Source of the DNA: an uncultured Verrucomicrobiota bacterium
Lineage (GTDB): Bacteria > Verrucomicrobiota > Kiritimatiellia > RFP12 > UBA1067
Direction of reading: 5' to 3'
NCBI GenBank assembly: GCA_946631535.1
Contig: CAMPAF010000148.1
Location: forward strand, 1 to 7,346
DNA: 7,346 bases
A program made the position numbers and the translations under genes. Shown one piece after another: positions 1-7,346 of the stretch (within the stretch, counting starts at the first letter, position 1; each line of letters starts with the position of its first letter). The notes under the pieces were generated by a model. That model was not told the DNA's origin and made no database searches. It saw nothing but the letters and a program-made list of their open reading frames with translations.

Positions 1-404
1 GCGGATTCATCGCCGGCTTCTTCGTCGGGCGCCGCGGCAAGGCAGCCTGCGCCTGCAAGAAAGGCGCCGCCAAGAAGCAGCCGGCGCAGCAGCCCCGCCG
101 CGCGGTCCGTCCGCCGGAACCCCGCACACCGATTCCCGCCGGCAGCGTGGAGATCTACGTTGGCAACCTTAGCTACGACATGACCGAAGATGCCCTTCGC
201 AAGACATTCGAAGCGTTCGGCAAGGTCGATTCCGCGCGCGTGGTCACGAACCGCTTCAACAACAAGTCCAAGGGCTTTGGATTCGTGGTCATGCCGAACC
301 GTCCCGAGGCCGAGAAGGCCATCGCCGAGATGAGCGAGAAGGAAGTCATGGGCCGGAAGATGCGCGTCAACGAGGCGCAGAACACGATCAAGGCAGACGC
401 CTGA
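1..404 (+). CDS. RRM RNA-binding protein with probable N-terminal membrane segment (5' partial)
   Basis: The C-terminal 85 residues are a single RNA recognition motif of the small bacterial/cyanobacterial type, expected to bind single-stranded RNA. RNP2 is IYVGNL (bases 153-170) and RNP1 is KGFGFVVM (270-293), where Met replaces the usual final aromatic. The frame stays open to the left edge: 48 further codons with strong GC third-position bias and no stop. They encode a hydrophobic stretch (GFIAGFFVG) followed by basic residues, a CAC pair of cysteines, and a Lys/Ala/Gln then Pro/Arg-rich linker. That pattern fits the end of a transmembrane helix with a cytoplasmic tether, so I annotate a partial gene running off the window. 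The alternative is a stand-alone RRM protein starting at GTG 147; I disfavour it because no Shine-Dalgarno is visible there, although many bacterial RRM proteins do begin right at this motif. The stop TGA overlaps the aroKB start. The RRM call is firm; the membrane tether is inference. Confidence 0.82.
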   Translation, partial: GFIAGFFVGRRGKAACACKKGAAKKQPAQQPRRAVRPPEPRTPIPAGSVEIYVGNLSYDMTEDALRKTFEAFGKVDSARVVTNRFNNKSKGFGFVVMPNRPEAEKAIAEMSEKEVMGRKMRVNEAQNTIKADA

Positions 405-406
405 TG
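402..406 (+). promoter_or_regulatory. TGATG stop-start overlap (translational coupling)
   Basis: The RRM gene's TGA (402-404) shares its A with the ATG (404-406) of aroKB. Only a weak AAGG (390-393) lies 10 bases upstream of the ATG. Such overlaps usually allow terminating ribosomes to reinitiate, so aroKB output is probably tied to translation of the RRM gene. Coupling is inferred from the arrangement; no separate promoter for aroKB is evident. Confidence 0.7.
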
Positions 407-1837
407 CAGACGATATTCATCTACGGGCCGCCCGGGAGCGGCAAGACGACGCTCGGCAAGCTTCTTGCCGGGCGTTTTTCCGCCCCTTTCGAGGACCTTG
501 ACGACTCGATCGTGCAGGCGGCAGACGGCAAGTCAATCCCCGCAATCTTCTCCGAAGAGGGCGAGTCCGGGTTCCGCGCCCGCGAGCGAGCCGCTCTCGA
601 GGCGGCCTGTGCCGCTCCAGGGCACGTTGTCGCGCTCGGCGGCGGCGCGCTGCTGGACCCCGCGTGCCGCACGCTCGCCGAGTCGCACGGGCAAGTCGTC
701 TGCCTCGACGTCCCGGCCGACGTCCTTAAGGCGCGAATCGCGTCCCAGGCCGGAACGCGCCCGCTCGCCGACGCCGCCGAGAAGGTGGACCGCCTGCTAG
801 CCACGCGCGGACCTCACTACGACTCCTTCGCCGTGCGCCCCGTCGCGCACTTCGCGATCGACTCCGGCGACGAGCCCAGCGACATATTCGTGGGCCGTGG
901 CCTCGTCGACACGGTCGGCGCATGGGCGGCTGCGCGCAAGCTGGGCGGACGAGCCGTAGTTGTCGGAGACACCAACACTTTCCCCCTTTACGGCGAACGC
1001 GTCCTCGCATCGCTGCGGAAGTCCGGATTCTCCGCGACGGCTCTGACGATCCCCGCCGGCGAAGAGACGAAGACGATCGACACTGTCATGTCCATATGGC
1101 GCGCGTTCCTCGCCGCAGAGCTGGGGCGAAGCGACTTCGCCGTCGCCGTCGGCGGGGGCGTGACGGGCGACATGACGGGTTTCGCAGCCGCCAGCTGGAT
1201 GCGCGGCATGCGCTGGATCAACGTCCCTACCTCGCTGCTCGCGATGGTGGACGCGTCGACCGGCGGCAAGACGGGCTGCGACCTGCCCGAGGCCAAGAAC
1301 ATGGTGGGCGCGTTCCATTCGCCCACGTTCGTCCTGGCCGACACGGCGACGCTCGACACCCTGCCGCCGCGCGAGTTAGCATGCGGCATGGCTGAGACTA
1401 TCAAGCACGCCTTTATCGCCGACCCAGGCCTGCTGGATGACCCGTCGGTCGCGCGTTCCCTGGCCGTAAAGGTCAAGATCGTCACGGAAGACGCGAAGGA
1501 GAAAGGCGTCCGCGCCAAGCTGAACCTCGGCCACACCGTCGCCCATGCGCTCGAGATCGCCACAAACTTCTCGGTTAAGCATGGAGAGGCCGTCGCGATC
1601 GGCACGGTGGAGGAGGCGCGTCTCGCGGTGCGGCTAGGCCTCGCGCCGGCGGACTGGCCCGACACCGTGGCTGCGGCGTTCGCGAAGGCGAAACTCCCAA
1701 CTGCGCTGCCTGATGGCATCACGTTCGATTCGCTCGCGGAGATCATGCGTCACGACAAGAAGCAGCGCGGCGGCAAGATATCATTCGCGCTGCCGTGCGC
1801 TCCCGGCGACGTGCGCCTCGTGCCTGTTGCCGTGTAG
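404..1837 (+). CDS. aroKB: Bifunctional shikimate kinase / 3-dehydroquinate synthase
   Basis: A complete 477-residue cytosolic fusion enzyme of the shikimate pathway. Residues 1-155 are shikimate kinase (ATP + shikimate to shikimate-3-phosphate): Walker A GPPGSGKTT at 8-16, shikimate-binding Asp31/Asp33 (DLD), Arg58 in GFR, GGG 79-81, lid Arg119 (RPL) and the R135..Y139 motif. Residues about 160-477 are 3-dehydroquinate synthase (DAHP to 3-dehydroquinate, NAD and metal dependent): PAGEETKT 217-224, GGGVTGD 250-256, PTSLLAMVDASTGGKTG 275-291, KNMVGAFHSP 298-307, and metal ligands Glu331, His377 (LGHT) and His393 (KHGEAVA). The two steps are not consecutive (AroB is step 2, AroK step 5), as in other known AroKB fusions. 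The Glu331-His377 interval is 46 residues, about 17 shorter than in a typical AroB, so a helical segment is trimmed; all catalytic motifs remain, so it is likely active. The start is fixed by the overlap with the RRM gene. Confidence 0.96.
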   Translation: MQTIFIYGPPGSGKTTLGKLLAGRFSAPFEDLDDSIVQAADGKSIPAIFSEEGESGFRARERAALEAACAAPGHVVALGGGALLDPACRTLAESHGQVVCLDVPADVLKARIASQAGTRPLADAAEKVDRLLATRGPHYDSFAVRPVAHFAIDSGDEPSDIFVGRGLVDTVGAWAAARKLGGRAVVVGDTNTFPLYGERVLASLRKSGFSATALTIPAGEETKTIDTVMSIWRAFLAAELGRSDFAVAVGGGVTGDMTGFAAASWMRGMRWINVPTSLLAMVDASTGGKTGCDLPEAKNMVGAFHSPTFVLADTATLDTLPPRELACGMAETIKHAFIADPGLLDDPSVARSLAVKVKIVTEDAKEKGVRAKLNLGHTVAHALEIATNFSVKHGEAVAIGTVEEARLAVRLGLAPADWPDTVAAAFAKAKLPTALPDGITFDSLAEIMRHDKKQRGGKISFALPCAPGDVRLVPVAV

Positions 1838-1843
1838 CCGCCG

Positions 1844-4828
1844 TCAGAGCAGCTCGCCGAGCGGAAGCCCCTGCCGTCCGGCCTCGAATATCTTTCGCAA
1901 GTCCTCGTGCGAAAGGGCGCGAGTCCATAGCGCGAAGTCATCAACGTCGCCATTTAGCGGGCACCTGTAGGCGCCCGTCCCGTCCTGCCCGATGTGGAAC
2001 GGCAGGCCGCTCTTCACGACTATGTCTGAAGCCGGAGCGCAGAGCCAGTTGAACCGCCCGTCCGCTCGTCCCTGGTAGACGATGATGACGCCTTCAGAGT
2101 TGCGCACGACTGCGTAGAACGCCCACTGGCCAGGTTCGATGTCGAAGGTGCCCAGGTCGATGCGGCCCTTGTCAGGACGCCCTGCGTTGAGGCAAACCCC
2201 CGGGACCTTCACTCCGTCCGTCGCCTTGGACGCGACGAGCGCTATGCCCGGATTCGCTCCGCTCCTCCAGTCCTTGTTGGAGAAGATGACCGGATCGCCT
2301 TCCTGCTTGGCCGGCAGACGCGCCCATAGCGTCACGGCGAAGTCGCCGCCGTTCTCGAACGCGAGCTTATCGCTGCCTTCCACCTTGCGTATGCCAAGCG
2401 GCTTGCCGCCGGCTGCCAAGTAGGCCGCAAGGCCGTCCTTGAGAGGGCGCAAACAGTCTTTAGCGGTTTTCGCGAGAGGATGCCCGTCGAGATTTAGCTC
2501 TACCGGATCCAGCCCAAAATGCGCGAGCGCGGTCGCCGTGAGGTCGTAGTGGCGTGGCGCGCCGACGAGGCGGCCAGAGGGGATGTTGCGCCCCGAGAGA
2601 ATGACTGGGATCGTGCATGCCTGGCCGCCCCACATGCCGTGGGAACGCGCATAGCCGCCGTGGTCGGACGTAACCATCACAAGCCAGTCTTCGTCTTTGA
2701 ACGTAGGGCGGCTCCTGATTGCCGCGAGCGCCGCGGCGATGTACGTGTCGCTAGTGTACAGCGAATGCAGGTAGTTCTTGCTGAACGGATAGAAGCCTGC
2801 GGAGTGGCCGCCGTGGTCTGGCAGGTCGATGAAGTACTGGATCGCGTCCGGCGCGTCGGGGGACGCAAGTATCTTGGCGATGGTCTTTCCGTTGTTCGCG
2901 TCGGTGTCGTGGATGAACTGCACGTTCTGCGCGCTGGGATACTGCTTGCCCTCGCCCCACGAGAAGATGAAGAGCCCTTTCGTGCCCGGCACCTTCCCTG
3001 TCACGCGCATGAGCCACGTAGACCAATGGGCGTAGTCGCCGTCCTTTGTCTGGCCGTTGCTGAATACGCGCGACTTGGCGGCGTTGACACCGGTGGATAT
3101 GGCCGTGTGGTTCGCGGCGCTGGACGGTCGCGCGTCGGGCACGTTCTGCCCGAAGAGAGACCACGCGCCCGCGTAGCCGGGCGCCCATGCGCCGTTACGC
3201 ACGCTTTGCACTGCCGGCATGCGCGCCGTGTCGATGGCGTCGGCACGCGCGCCGTCCAGCATCACAAGCAAGACCATTGGCCTGCGCACGGACGCTCCGT
3301 CAACAGACTCGCGCAATGCGGCCGTGGCGACAAACACCGTCGTGTCCGAACGCGTGCCGCTGTAATACGCGAGATAGTGCCGGCCACCAAATGCGACCGC
3401 GTTCACGTTCCCCGCATCGTGCGGGCGCTCCTCGTTGCCGATGGCTACGCCTTCACCGTCCGGCCAAGAAAGAGGATCGTTCCAGACATCTTCCACCCGT
3501 GCGACGCGCCGCTTGATTACGCCACGCCCACGCTCGTAGTAGTAGTTGTAGACAAGCCCCCTATCGGCATCCAGGACAAGGCTTGGCGTCGAGGCCTGCA
3601 CGTCGCGGATGTTCGTGCGCACGCGCGTCCAGGTGGTACCGTCGTCAGTAGACATCAGCTGGAACTGCGACGCCGTCGACGCACCGCCGTTTTCTGTGCG
3701 GGCAATCGCAAGTATGCGTCCGCCCCCAAGGTACACAGCCGACTGTTCCGTGGGCAACTCCCCTTTCTCAAGTCCGGTTTCAACGGTTTTCTGCTCCCAC
3801 GTGCGGCCGTTGTCCGCGCTTGCGAGCGTACCCCATGAGCTAGACTTCTCTCCCTGGCGATAGTTCGTGGCGAACCAGAGCGACATCAGCTTGCCGCCCG
3901 GCAGCTTGAACACATCGGTGATCTGCATTGGAAACGGGTCTAGCGAAGGCTCCGCGATCTTCTCGAACCTGACACCGTCTATCGTGCGGTAGAGGTCGTG
4001 GTGCGAACGTGGCCGCCCTATGCACCGTACCCAGAAAAGCGCGGCTCCGTCGAGGTCTGTCCCCTTCCCGATCATCACCTCGCCAACATTGGGATCGGCG
4101 GCAAAGCAGACCTCTGGCGACCACGTGCGACCGCCGTCTGTCGAGACGCGCGCGTAGGCGTCGCGCGAACCCTCGCCAATCGTGTGCCCACTTCCGCGGC
4201 TGTACGTGCAGACGAGACGGTTGCCGACAGTCTGGATCATAGGCCATGAGTTGTAGCCCTTCACGTCCTGGACGACGAACGCAGGCGCTGGCGCATCAAG
4301 CGGCGTTACCGTTACGGAAATGAGTCCCGCAGGTCTTGTGAACGTATCGCCAGGATCATCAGGCTCGCGCTGGATGCGCAAGGAAATGGGCAGTCCCGGC
4401 GTCACCTTGCGGTACGATTCCATGACGATGGTGCGCACTTTCCACGGAGCGGAGAGGCGCGCGAGCACAGGCTTGCCAACAGTCGCGTCCATGTCGAGCG
4501 TTTGTCCGTCCTTCACCTGCGCGATGTGCGCGCGGTAGACGTCCGTGAACGTGTTCGTGGCGGCAGAATCCTCGTTCACCACCTGCATCTCCACCCGCAC
4601 CGCGGTGCACTCGCTCGGAAGCGGCGGCGTGAGCGCTGCGATCGACTGTCCTGTCTGTCCGCCAGACAACGACCACACCGGCACGTGCACCGAACCTTTC
4701 GCCCATGTCACGAGCGACGGGTTCCCGGTGGCGCGCACGAAATCCGTCGCGACCAGACGAATCGGTGTGCCACCGCAAGCCGCCGCAGTACAAACGACGG
4801 CAAGAATCCAAGCAGTTGATTTATTCAT
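1844..4828 (-). CDS. Secreted trimodular protein: Asp-box propeller, alkaline phosphatase-superfamily hydrolase, LamG domain
   Basis: 994 residues from the chosen ATG. Residues 1-18 form a signal peptide (Lys3, then a hydrophobic AWILAVVCTAAA); TAAAC-GG could be a weak lipobox with Cys18 as the lipidated residue, so it is a lipoprotein or secreted. Residues ~20-180 are a beta-rich domain I do not recognise. Residues ~185-510 are a sialidase-like propeller with Asp boxes STDGGRTW (229-236), SADNGRTW (337-344) and STDDGTTW (393-400). Residues ~516-800 are an alkaline phosphatase/NPP-like domain: Asp525 (VMLDG), putative nucleophile Ser570 in SSAANHT, Asp671 and His675 (DHGGH), Asp722-His723 (SDHGG) and His730, a complete two-metal set. 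Residues ~815-994 are a ConA/LamG-like beta-sandwich ending in a DDFALWTRALS motif. It probably cleaves a phosphate or sulfate ester on an extracellular glycan or nucleotide; the substrate is unknown. The sialidase FRIP arginine is not evident (GYNSWP instead). An upstream in-frame ATG at 4870 has no spaced Shine-Dalgarno and would bury the signal peptide. Confidence 0.88.
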   Translation of the reverse strand: MNKSTAWILAVVCTAAACGGTPIRLVATDFVRATGNPSLVTWAKGSVHVPVWSLSGGQTGQSIAALTPPLPSECTAVRVEMQVVNEDSAATNTFTDVYRAHIAQVKDGQTLDMDATVGKPVLARLSAPWKVRTIVMESYRKVTPGLPISLRIQREPDDPGDTFTRPAGLISVTVTPLDAPAPAFVVQDVKGYNSWPMIQTVGNRLVCTYSRGSGHTIGEGSRDAYARVSTDGGRTWSPEVCFAADPNVGEVMIGKGTDLDGAALFWVRCIGRPRSHHDLYRTIDGVRFEKIAEPSLDPFPMQITDVFKLPGGKLMSLWFATNYRQGEKSSSWGTLASADNGRTWEQKTVETGLEKGELPTEQSAVYLGGGRILAIARTENGGASTASQFQLMSTDDGTTWTRVRTNIRDVQASTPSLVLDADRGLVYNYYYERGRGVIKRRVARVEDVWNDPLSWPDGEGVAIGNEERPHDAGNVNAVAFGGRHYLAYYSGTRSDTTVFVATAALRESVDGASVRRPMVLLVMLDGARADAIDTARMPAVQSVRNGAWAPGYAGAWSLFGQNVPDARPSSAANHTAISTGVNAAKSRVFSNGQTKDGDYAHWSTWLMRVTGKVPGTKGLFIFSWGEGKQYPSAQNVQFIHDTDANNGKTIAKILASPDAPDAIQYFIDLPDHGGHSAGFYPFSKNYLHSLYTSDTYIAAALAAIRSRPTFKDEDWLVMVTSDHGGYARSHGMWGGQACTIPVILSGRNIPSGRLVGAPRHYDLTATALAHFGLDPVELNLDGHPLAKTAKDCLRPLKDGLAAYLAAGGKPLGIRKVEGSDKLAFENGGDFAVTLWARLPAKQEGDPVIFSNKDWRSGANPGIALVASKATDGVKVPGVCLNAGRPDKGRIDLGTFDIEPGQWAFYAVVRNSEGVIIVYQGRADGRFNWLCAPASDIVVKSGLPFHIGQDGTGAYRCPLNGDVDDFALWTRALSHEDLRKIFEAGRQGLPLGELL

Positions 4829-4834
4829 GTTGAA

Positions 4835-4840
4835 CCTCTT
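4835..4840 (-). promoter_or_regulatory. Shine-Dalgarno deciding the start at 4828
   Basis: On the minus strand AAGAGG lies 6 bases before the ATG at 4826-4828, close to ideal spacing. The alternative ATG at 4868-4870 has only a G-run directly abutting it. The downstream start also puts the signal peptide at the true N-terminus. The 48-base gap to the preceding gene holds no clear promoter or terminator hairpin, which favours readthrough from upstream. Confidence 0.8.
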
Positions 4841-4876
4841 GCATCTTCTGTGAAAAGCATATCGGGCCATCCCCCG

Positions 4877-5368
4877 TCAATGCGGCCTTATGCGCTTTAC
4901 CGCCAGTTCGCGGCGGCCCCATAGCTTCGCCTCCTCGTGGGTGGGGAACCACACGTCGATGTGCCGCCCCCTGATCGCGCCGCCCACATCCTCCACGACG
5001 CCAGTGCCGTAGCCGGGGATGTCCAGCCGCGTGCCGAACGGGAACACCTTCGGATCCGCAGCCACCGTTCCCCTCTTCGCCACAGTGCCGCGCGCAGTCC
5101 GTCCAACCTTCTTGGGTTTTCCCTTCATCTGGCCGTACGTGTAGACGGGACGCCCGAACCCGAACCAGCTTCTCTCCCAGCCACAGCACTGCTGGCAGTT
5201 GCAGTACCCGGTCACCAGAATGAGATTCTTGTCTTTAGGGCCATCTGGTCTTGCCGGTTTCCCCGAAGAGGAAATGATGCTCCAAAGGCAGTACACCATG
5301 AGCACCGCAAAGGTGGCGAATGCCCATCGCCACAACTGCCTGATGCGAAGTTTCCAGCTCTTCCCCAC
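4877..5368 (-). CDS. Membrane-anchored 3D-domain protein, putative peptidoglycan lytic enzyme
   Basis: 163 residues from a GTG start. Residues 1-12 are basic, 13-32 form one transmembrane helix (signal anchor), and 33-48 are a short Pro/Lys linker. The rest, about 50-163, is a 3D domain outside the membrane, the double-psi beta-barrel fold shared with MltA/YabE-type lytic transglycosylases. The three namesake aspartates are Asp105 (AADP), Asp127 (VED) and Asp138 (HID). The motif VTGYCNCQQCCGW (52-64) carries four Cys in a CxCxxCC pattern. About 25 residues (WERSWFGFGRP to KKVG) separate it from the TARG segment, where many family members have a short link and TASG. The role is inferred to be cleavage or remodelling of wall glycan. 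The open frame continues to 5578, but that part overlaps the preceding gene and reads as low-complexity shadow sequence. GTG 5366-5368 comes 11 bases after the preceding stop, with AGG 10 bases upstream. A later TTG is a possible alternative start. Confidence 0.82.
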   Translation of the reverse strand: MGKSWKLRIRQLWRWAFATFAVLMVYCLWSIISSSGKPARPDGPKDKNLILVTGYCNCQQCCGWERSWFGFGRPVYTYGQMKGKPKKVGRTARGTVAKRGTVAADPKVFPFGTRLDIPGYGTGVVEDVGGAIRGRHIDVWFPTHEEAKLWGRRELAVKRIRPH

Positions 5369-5379
5369 TGCACGCTCGC

Positions 5380-7346
5380 CTATTTCGCGGTCTTCCTGAA
5401 GGAGCGGAAGTACACGCCCTTCGGGTCGTGTCCCTCCGCAAGCGTCTGAAGGTGCATGTACGACGGGCCGAACGGCGACTTGCCGTCGGTCTTGAGCTGG
5501 AACGTCCGCGTGCGGCCGCCGCACGTGAGGGTCGCGGTCCTGGCCGTCCAGTCCCACGCAAGCGACAGCTTCGCCCACGTCCCCTTTCCGCCCAGCGTCT
5601 CTGCCGTCACGGGCACGGCCACGGCCGACTCCTCGCCCACGAACTCATCGCACGGGTTGAACCAGTGGTCGCAGAGCGCCAGCTGGAAGCCTTCGCCGTC
5701 GATGCGGCACTCGAGCTCGAGACGCCCAGTCAGTCCTGCCGGGAAGTTCCACACCACGCCCTGACGGTCGGAGACGAGCCGCTCGTCGCGGATGCGGCAG
5801 AGCTGTAGCACCTCGCGCCTGGTCTTCGGACCCGTATCCGGCTCTCGGACGAGCAGCGCGCCCGGCACGCGGTTGAACGCGCAGTGCCCGCTCCATCCGC
5901 GGAAGTTGCCGGCAAGAGACTTCACGAACAGGTGGTTGGAGATGCCGTCGAGACCGCCCTTGAAGTCCTCGAATCGGTCCGTCTCGTATAGCCATGAGAC
6001 GTCGAAGAGGCAGATGCGGCACGACGATCCTTGACCGTAGGGCAGGATGATCTTGCCGTCCGGCATCTCCATCGGCTGCGTCTGGTGGACGCTCTTGTCG
6101 ATCTCGCGCCACTTCCTGTTGCCGTACTCGCGGAAGTCGGCACGGTTGCGTATCGCGTTGCGCGCCACCTCGCGGAACCCGATCCACGTGCGGCCATCGT
6201 CCTCTGAGATCGCGGCGTGCAGCGCGTCGCGGTTGGTGAACACCGTCTCAGACCGTCCCGAGAGCTCGCTCCTGTTCAGCTCCGGATACTCGGAGGGATC
6301 GCGCTTCGGCAGCGGCTCGGTGTTGTTCCAGAAGAAGAGGATTCGCCCGTCCTTCAGCTTGAGGAACGTCGGCATCGTGTTGGAGGCGCAGAACATCGGC
6401 GCTGGCTTCGGGCCGTCCCAAGTCTCGCCGCCGTCCTTCGACGTGTAGAGGTAGTGGTGGCGGAACGTGGCACGCACGGCCATCAGCAGGTCGCCGTTCG
6501 AGAGCTCCACTATGGTCGGCTCGCAGCAGCCGTTGTTCCAGCGAAGCGACTTGTCGTGGAACACCAGATGGTCTGCGGATACGGCGTTCGTGACGACTAC
6601 GTCGCGCCACGTCTCCCCGTCGTCCGACGAGATCGCGAGCGCGATGCGAGCTACGCCGTCGATCGTCCGCGCCCCCGCCATGATCCAGCGCCGCGACTTC
6701 TCCAGCGGCTGCATCGGCCGGAAGAAGGCAAGGCTGCGCGAGGTGGTGTCGGTCCACTTCACAGCCACCTTGCCGGTCGGACCGTCCTTGGAACGCACGC
6801 ACCTGAGGAAGCCTCCCTTCTTCGCAGGCGGCACAACAGAGAGGTAGTAGTCCGCCCACGGGCACTTCGCCATCGGCCCCAGGTCGCCATCGGGACGAAG
6901 AACGGTCTTCCACGAGAGGCCGCGGTCGCGCGACGAGAGATACACGCCGCGCACCTCGCCGTCCACGAAGTCACGTCCATAGTAGCGGATCTCCCCGTCC
7001 GGCATCACCACCATCTCCTTGTGGGTGTGCGCGGGCTGCTCGGCCACGACGCGCGGCGCATGGATGGACTTGTAGAGGAGCTGGTCAGACGCGTCGAGAG
7101 CGGGCCAGACGTCCAGCCCATTCGGGCTCGCACCGTCGTTCTTCGCCCCGGAAGCGCGAAGCTCCGCCAGCGCCACCTGCACGGCGCAAGGCGTCTCCTT
7201 GCCTGTCCAGTCCTGCGACTGCACCCACTCCTCTGCGGCGAACAGGCGCTGCGCGGCCTCCTCGTAGGACACGCCGCCGAGCTCCACCAGGAGGCGGATG
7301 CCGCGGTCGATGAGCTTCTTGTTGGAGATGGACACCCAGCTCATCC
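5380..7346 (-). CDS. MurQ-like C-terminal segment fused to a four-Asp-box sialidase-like propeller (5' partial)
   Basis: At least 654 residues; the frame is still open at the window's right edge. Residues 1-64 (NKKLIDRGIRLLVE, GVSYEEA, AVQVALAEL) match the pattern of the C-terminal helices of MurNAc-6-phosphate etherase (MurQ, SIS fold), in which N-x-KL-x-DR-x2-RI is followed by TG-x5-A and a final VKxAIVM-like helix. The ATG at 7344 falls where MurQ has an internal Met (GNLM), so the gene probably begins outside. Residues ~100-465 are a propeller with Asp boxes SRDRGLSW (138-145), SSDDGETW (239-246), SKDGGETW (302-309) and SEDDGRTW (380-387), plus CCEPTIVELSNGDLL (273-287). Residues ~470-654 form a beta-sandwich typical of the C-terminal part of planctomycete/verrucomicrobial exo-alpha-sialidase annotations. 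No signal peptide or internal start is visible, so the protein appears cytosolic. No FRIP arginine is seen (HTHKEMVVMPDG sits at that place), so sialidase activity is doubtful. The propeller call is firm; the MurQ part is probable. Confidence 0.8.
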   Translation of the reverse strand, partial: MSWVSISNKKLIDRGIRLLVELGGVSYEEAAQRLFAAEEWVQSQDWTGKETPCAVQVALAELRASGAKNDGASPNGLDVWPALDASDQLLYKSIHAPRVVAEQPAHTHKEMVVMPDGEIRYYGRDFVDGEVRGVYLSSRDRGLSWKTVLRPDGDLGPMAKCPWADYYLSVVPPAKKGGFLRCVRSKDGPTGKVAVKWTDTTSRSLAFFRPMQPLEKSRRWIMAGARTIDGVARIALAISSDDGETWRDVVVTNAVSADHLVFHDKSLRWNNGCCEPTIVELSNGDLLMAVRATFRHHYLYTSKDGGETWDGPKPAPMFCASNTMPTFLKLKDGRILFFWNNTEPLPKRDPSEYPELNRSELSGRSETVFTNRDALHAAISEDDGRTWIGFREVARNAIRNRADFREYGNRKWREIDKSVHQTQPMEMPDGKIILPYGQGSSCRICLFDVSWLYETDRFEDFKGGLDGISNHLFVKSLAGNFRGWSGHCAFNRVPGALLVREPDTGPKTRREVLQLCRIRDERLVSDRQGVVWNFPAGLTGRLELECRIDGEGFQLALCDHWFNPCDEFVGEESAVAVPVTAETLGGKGTWAKLSLAWDWTARTATLTCGGRTRTFQLKTDGKSPFGPSYMHLQTLAEGHDPKGVYFRSFRKTAK

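Follow-up and report, generated by a model that had tools for sequence, protein, structure and literature searches.

A GKRP-like double-SIS module fused in frame to a predicted GH181-type sialidase in Kiritimatiellae-type bacteria

GKRP (GCKR), the vertebrate regulator that binds and inhibits glucokinase, reportedly evolved from bacterial MurQ, as a 2009 paper has it in its title. In MurQ itself, Glu120 (H. influenzae numbering) and Glu89 are taken here to be the catalytic residues. According to the available text of PMC4109836, the fructose-phosphate ligands of GKRP include E153, N512, K514, L515, R518, S110, S179, V180, E348 and H351. NagS, a relative of MurQ within the SIS superfamily, is described in the accessible part of PMC12680351 as a GlcNAc-6-P dehydratase that performs an elimination on an N-acetylhexosamine. 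As for sialidases, AmGH181 (Amuc_1547) acted on none of the O-glycans tested but sialyl-T, as far as the available text of PMC10067855 reports. Relatives of these systems are joined in the stretch analysed here, the 7,346 nucleotides of contig CAMPAF010000148.1 (hereafter the window), where a reading frame of 654 codons on the minus strand (7344..5380), open at the window edge, runs from a SIS-type C-terminus into a propeller. Its parts are the following.

7150..7344, minus strand: C-terminal 65 residues (lid region) of a GKRP-like double-SIS module, by alignment to GKRP
7323-7321, 7317-7315, 7314-7312 and 7305-7303, minus strand: codons of N8, K10, L11 and R14, respectively, by alignment to GKRP
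7108..7149, minus strand: 14-residue linker, variable between assemblies
5383..7107, minus strand: GH181-type sialidase, propeller and CBM-like domain, by alignment to AmGH181
5380..5382, minus strand: stop codon of the fusion, by translation

The sequence-only reading of this DNA saw a MurQ-like C-terminal pattern joined in frame to a propeller with four Asp boxes, and both parts were located in the window translation: N-x-KL-x-DR at residues 8-14 and GVSYEEA at residues 24-30, followed by the boxes SSRDRGLSW, SSDDGETW, SKDGGETW and SEDDGRTW. The N-terminal residues visible in the window give weak matches to NCBIfam TIGR00274 (E 0.0056, 15.8 bits against a cut-off of 302 bits), to PDB 4s12 by phmmer (E 1.4) and to the GKRP lid domain of Pfam (E 0.17). 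A single scan of genome contigs with the window frame returned 16 loci (L001-L016). Residues 1-654 are matched over their full length in L001 (RUG10884, 98%) and L008 (RUG11483, 96%); six SIS loci (L011-L016) match residues 1-63/68 only, and in eight of the 16 the match starts at residue 54 or later. The gene in L008 is complete, from an ATG at 3366, with GAAGGGA on its 5' side, to a stop at 6965, and encodes a hydrophobic N-terminus, a double SIS of ~590 residues, the linker and the propeller. The SIS domain sought in the same frame beyond position 7346 was thereby found, and because of this extension and the six SIS loci the MurQ/SIS assignment is firm. The claim of a MurQ C-terminus held in part: SIS domains do lie upstream in frame, but they form a GKRP-like double SIS that reaches 109.2 bits against TIGR00274, below the 302-bit family cut-off. 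The tail QSQDWTGKE, earlier considered a possible sign of a specialised fusion, is also present in the stand-alone relative L011 and is therefore no fusion-specific change. The SIS region of L012 sits in a frame of 1248 codons, and a SIS gene in another locus (L014:2953-4827, plus strand) is spread over three frames and is thus broken or misassembled.

In a profile search of L001-L060 and the window, no frames other than those of the window, L001 and L008 combine SIS with GH181 (L033 contains the L008 gene again and is no extra copy), and the co-linear fusions sought in related genomes are those of L001 and L008, which have the same junction. Nucleotide identity to the window is 97% for L001 and 91% for L008. 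Between the window and L008, the 65 codons of the SIS tail show seven synonymous changes and no non-synonymous one, the 575 codons of the propeller 62 and 18 respectively, and six of the 14 linker codons differ (one synonymous, five non-synonymous change). Such substitutions are in keeping with purifying selection of both halves and with little constraint on the linker, whose position has low pLDDT in the structure model of the whole fusion. Support is good for the fusion and for what its two halves are. Several of the matching loci are assigned to a Kiritimatiellae bacterium, some of them from goat omasum, and 'RUG' denotes rumen genomes; the fusion-bearing bacterium is probably from the rumen.

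The SIS half has two SIS domains and a lid in one chain, the GKRP-like arrangement, and GKRP is the best fold match in the structure comparison of its model. Window residues N8, K10, L11 and R14 align with GKRP Asn512, Lys514, Leu515 and Arg518. Numbered on the mature L008 piece, as are all module residues below, GKRP E153, N512, K514, L515 and R518 correspond to E151, N531, K533, L534 and R537, all of them kept; S110 and S179 are replaced by Thr and V180 by Glu (E177), and E348 and H351 fall outside the alignment. Among 241 aligned modules (the L008 fusion and 240 proteins from two sets of 120 listed relatives), E151, the equivalent of MurQ Glu120, is found in 240 (the remaining one has a gap there), E177 in 238, K533 in 240 and both E180 and R537 in all 241, and the motifs TDxTERxPT and GSTRMQA are almost invariant. 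E151, E180, E330, K502 and R537 are each present in 50 of 50 fusion modules from the set of long relatives described below. Judging by these residues, the site of the module looks functional, yet not like a MurQ site. Identity as a single-domain MurQ was rejected on the family cut-off, the Glu89 position and the double-SIS fold. A MurQ above the cut-off occurs in two of the 14 genomes checked, whose assemblies may be incomplete.

The propeller half strongly matches the GH181 structures 8hls, 8axi, 8axs, 8axt and 9eob (E between 6e-48 and 9e-46), no other sialidase scoring better than E 5e-5, and has the propeller plus CBM-like domain of GH181. Eight active-site residues of AmGH181 are described in the available portions of PMC10067855 and PMC12018670 (E218, R234, R305, D345, H349, Q350, Q367 and H411); by alignment and a check of the window translation, their equivalents E275, R291, R372, D416, H420, Q421, Q438 and H487 are identical in all eight cases. 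This suggests that the propeller half is a sialidase. GH181 relatives with other partners were also seen: P0002 has an unassigned N-terminal region, and the partners in P0015, P0088 and P0097 are GH5, M14 peptidase and 3-keto-disaccharide hydrolase. The GH181 genes of L003, L004, L005 and L010 end ~300 bases or less from contig ends, as though a repeat came next.

The SIS module is not confined to this fusion. The two sets of relatives consist of 120 listed stand-alone proteins, all of 568-638 residues, and of 120 listed among 456 matches in a search biased to long proteins, 55 of the latter 120 having at least 740 residues; since this search uses a length rule, the share of fusions in it is no frequency. 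In the long-biased set, DUF6259 occurs in 30 of the 120 listed proteins. The module forms the N-terminal part of fusions with GH16, DUF6259, SGNH esterase, GH2 and GNAT, and also with a GH42-like domain just below the cut-off; it forms the C-terminal part of those with GH95, GH5, DUF4838/GH67N, sulfatase, GH2 and QueH. No partner was identified for a few long proteins (e.g. P0138, P0166 and L055). A less biased sample of 387 genomes from the phylum contains the module in 106 (E <= 1e-40), of which 13, counted by frame length, have it in an unbroken frame of 814 codons or more; four frames with in-frame stops (G034, G035, G190 and G423) were left out of this count. The module was further found in 47 of 114 relatives of G008, the genome of the L008 fusion, which is itself included (E <= 1e-30). 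In a quick tree of 94 rows (91 inner branches, 41 starred, 23 weak), the GH181 fusion falls among signal-bearing stand-alone modules. The 16 partner labels require 24 changes on this tree, against a shuffled mean of 45.5, and the starred branches require at least 8 changes for DUF6259; a change here can be a gain or a loss.

Export was scored by a rule made for this analysis rather than by a dedicated signal-peptide predictor; it flags 2 of 1954 internal Met segments and 364 of 3000 shuffled N-termini, and leaves 32 of the 240 proteins, which have no start motif, unscored. The rule flags the L008 fusion (the window copy lacks the N-terminus), 56 of 108 stand-alone GH181 proteins, 60 of the 120 listed stand-alone SIS proteins and, in the long-biased set, 20 of 45 SIS-first fusions (one unscored) and 3 of 10 SIS-last fusions. 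Past the hydrophobic stretch, the L008 frame contains no start codon up to residue 75. Since the counts are mixed, forms with and without a signal exist side by side, and the quick tree does not separate them into two clean clades; G008 also carries a signal-less SIS paralogue (L047:4344-6107). The cytosolic location proposed from the sequence alone is made improbable by the predicted signal-peptide-like starts of the complete L008 copy and of half of the listed stand-alone relatives, and by P0121, P0122, P0157 and P0160, in which the SIS module follows an enzyme with a signal-like N-terminus according to an earlier, looser rule that falsely flagged a phosphofructokinase-like control. A signal peptide just beyond 7346 had been regarded as incompatible with a fusion; the signal-like stretch occurs only at the start of the whole protein and therefore counts against the cytosolic reading, which is weakened, and not against the fusion, which stands. 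From its N-terminal sequence, the fusion protein is likely exported.

The explanation tentatively preferred here, with somewhat less than an even chance of being right, is an exported bifunctional protein of Kiritimatiellae-type bacteria that combines a GH181-type sialidase with a sugar-processing GKRP-like double SIS. The C-terminal half would strip sialic acid from a glycan, and the N-terminal module (SIS-1, SIS-2 and lid), connected to it by a flexible linker, would bind an unphosphorylated sugar in a GKRP-like pocket and probably process it chemically, by C2-H abstraction as in MurQ and NagS. Its ligand would be either the product of the partner enzyme or a residue next to it in that glycan. 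In the other fusions the same module would serve other, mostly glycan-degrading enzymes, and the signal-less forms would act in the cytosol. The probable location, the phosphate-loop glutamate and an MFS neighbour (see below) lead us to suggest an unphosphorylated ligand, and catalysis is favoured over mere binding because the acidic residues are fixed. In a more specific version, which as a whole is improbable, the double SIS would act outside the cytoplasm as a lyase akin to MurQ and NagS but independent of phosphate: the reducing-end sugar would be opened, its C2 proton taken by E151 and the C3 substituent eliminated, which amounts to 'peeling' by an enzyme. GH181 would uncap a sialylated chain, for instance sialyl-T, and the SIS half would then split the exposed 3-linked chain from the reducing-end hexosamine, the GH95, GH2, GH16, sulfatase and esterase partners being different uncapping enzymes combined with one non-hydrolytic cleaving domain.

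Several points weigh against the preferred explanation. The ungapped position of MurQ Glu89 is occupied by Met, Ile, Ala, Val, Leu, Phe, Cys or Ser in 238 of the 241 modules (the other three are not listed), so that etherase chemistry as such is not supported; a gap in the phmmer alignment near this position would allow for a displaced acid. A simple argument from a lost phosphate site is weakened, as the NagS phosphate-site mutants S54A, S119A and S121A retain activity according to the accessible part of PMC12680351, and the glutamate of the phosphate loop thus argues only weakly against a phosphosugar. Among the metal ligands of Amuc_1547, E289, E299 and D300 correspond to K, E and T, with E299 alone kept; the available text of PMC10067855 and PMC12018670 does not present this site as family-defining. 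As for export, alternative in-frame starts in L008 at 3393 and 3408 would shorten the signal-like stretch, 24 of the 45 fusions that begin with SIS and 7 of the 10 that end with it are unflagged, and only 2 of the 65 shorter proteins of the long-biased set are flagged (31 unscored). The copies in L001 and the window are partial, which leaves L008 as the sole complete SIS-GH181 fusion. The fusions to QueH and GNAT are at odds with a role in glycan metabolism, and since GH181 and the SIS module both recombine widely, partners need not share a substrate.

The strongest rival, unlikely but to be taken seriously, makes the SIS half an exported module that binds sugar without catalysis: a lectin or sensor resembling GKRP, by which the attached enzyme would be tethered or else controlled allosterically, in the way glucokinase is controlled by GKRP. 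The best fold match is indeed a regulator, the lid residues N512, K514, L515 and R518 are retained, and the module recurs as an add-on at either end of unrelated enzymes, as binding modules do. Nevertheless, the near-absolute conservation of the Glu120 equivalent, EGGET, GSTRMQA and TDxTERxPT exceeds the usual needs of binding, and stand-alone copies are common. That the fusion is incidental, two exported proteins having become one when a stop codon and a signal peptide were lost, with no substrate in common, would agree with its restriction to one lineage (window, L001 and L008), the wide recombination of both families and the unconstrained linker; the repeated joining of the SIS module to other, mostly glycan-degrading enzymes on the tree makes this a distinctly unlikely account. 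Still less credit is given to a fusion of a MurQ-type etherase and a propeller that would work in the cytosol on a sugar or muropeptide taken up by the cell. MurQ homology, the existence of signal-less SIS proteins and SIS-DUF6259 fusions and the MFS gene overlapping the signal-less paralogue speak for it, but the only complete copy has a signal-like start preceded by GAAGGGA and flagged by the rule, with no later start codon up to residue 75, the MurQ cut-off and E89 are unmatched, and about half of the stand-alone GH181 relatives are flagged as exported. An assembly or gene-calling artefact is hardly credible: the sources are metagenome assemblies, two of them with partial copies, yet the identical junction is seen in three assemblies with 3-9% nucleotide divergence and coding-type substitutions, and analogous fusions exist elsewhere.

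Next to the fusion in the window lies the following gene.

4877..5368, minus strand: short protein that contains a 3D domain (PF06725, E 1.4e-15, by Pfam) and a hydrophobic stretch

In L008, this 3D-domain gene starts 12 nt after the fusion stop; the nearest NCBIfam models of its product are SpsC and cell wall-binding Ent proteins. Among the loci clustered, to which neither the window nor L001 belonged, L008 alone had this gene cluster; no conserved association was thus seen, and a peptidoglycan role based on this neighbour was rejected. The signal-less SIS gene of G008 (L047) is overlapped by an MFS gene, whose best NCBIfam match is a galactonate-transporter subfamily, below cut-off, and the same MFS gene cluster overlaps a SIS gene in L087. 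In L052, L053 and L054, a long SIS gene is overlapped by a member of one further gene cluster; the L053 member carries DUF4838, and the L054 SIS protein DUF6259. Another frame overlapping the signal-less SIS gene (L047:6104-8248, plus strand) encodes 714 residues with a signal-like start. At the thresholds applied, neither Pfam nor NCBIfam gave a match for this frame, L056:4097-6100, L088:4670-6733 or L079:9740-13525, and L047:6104-8248 and L088:4670-6733 have no PDB match either. Elsewhere in the window, positions 1844-4870 (minus strand) encode a 1008-residue protein of unusual architecture (BNR propeller, type I phosphodiesterase-like domain and LamG_3), and positions 404-1837 (plus strand) a shikimate kinase fused to a 3-dehydroquinate synthase.

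The fold and both parent families are already known. No description of GKRP- or MurQ-like modules fused to glycan-degrading enzymes was found in the titles and abstract starts of the open-licence papers listed first by each search; within that scope, neither the double-SIS module with a signal nor its repeated fusions seem to have been described. A conserved bacterial family of GKRP fold on glycan-degrading enzymes hints at an unrecognised step of polysaccharide breakdown; the family offers a direct route to GKRP-like function outside regulation, and its recurring partners DUF6259 and DUF4838 gain hints to their function.

In comparison with known systems, the fusion differs from AmGH181 (PDB 8hls, 8axi), a sialyl-T-specific inverting sialidase, in having a SIS module as its N-terminus and in missing two of the three reported metal ligands; since identity is only 28-29%, the sialyl-T specificity is not transferable to it. 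Unlike GKRP (PDB 4bb9, 3w0l), the module is bacterial, has a signal-peptide-like N-terminus, is fused to other enzymes and bears Glu for V180 of the phosphate loop and Thr for S110 and S179; to our knowledge, it has no glucokinase partner. NagS, compared here through its published description, differs in its phosphosugar substrate and in a site formed by two monomers. With MurQ (PDB 4s12, 4lzj), the module shares the Glu120, GSTRM and N-x-KL motifs, and its SIS-1 superposes on 4s12 at 1.6 A over 219 residues; it is unlike MurQ in being a double rather than a single SIS, in scoring below the family cut-off, in its non-acidic Glu89 position (in the residues listed) and in having GGETSSV where the MurQ loop reads SGRTPYV.
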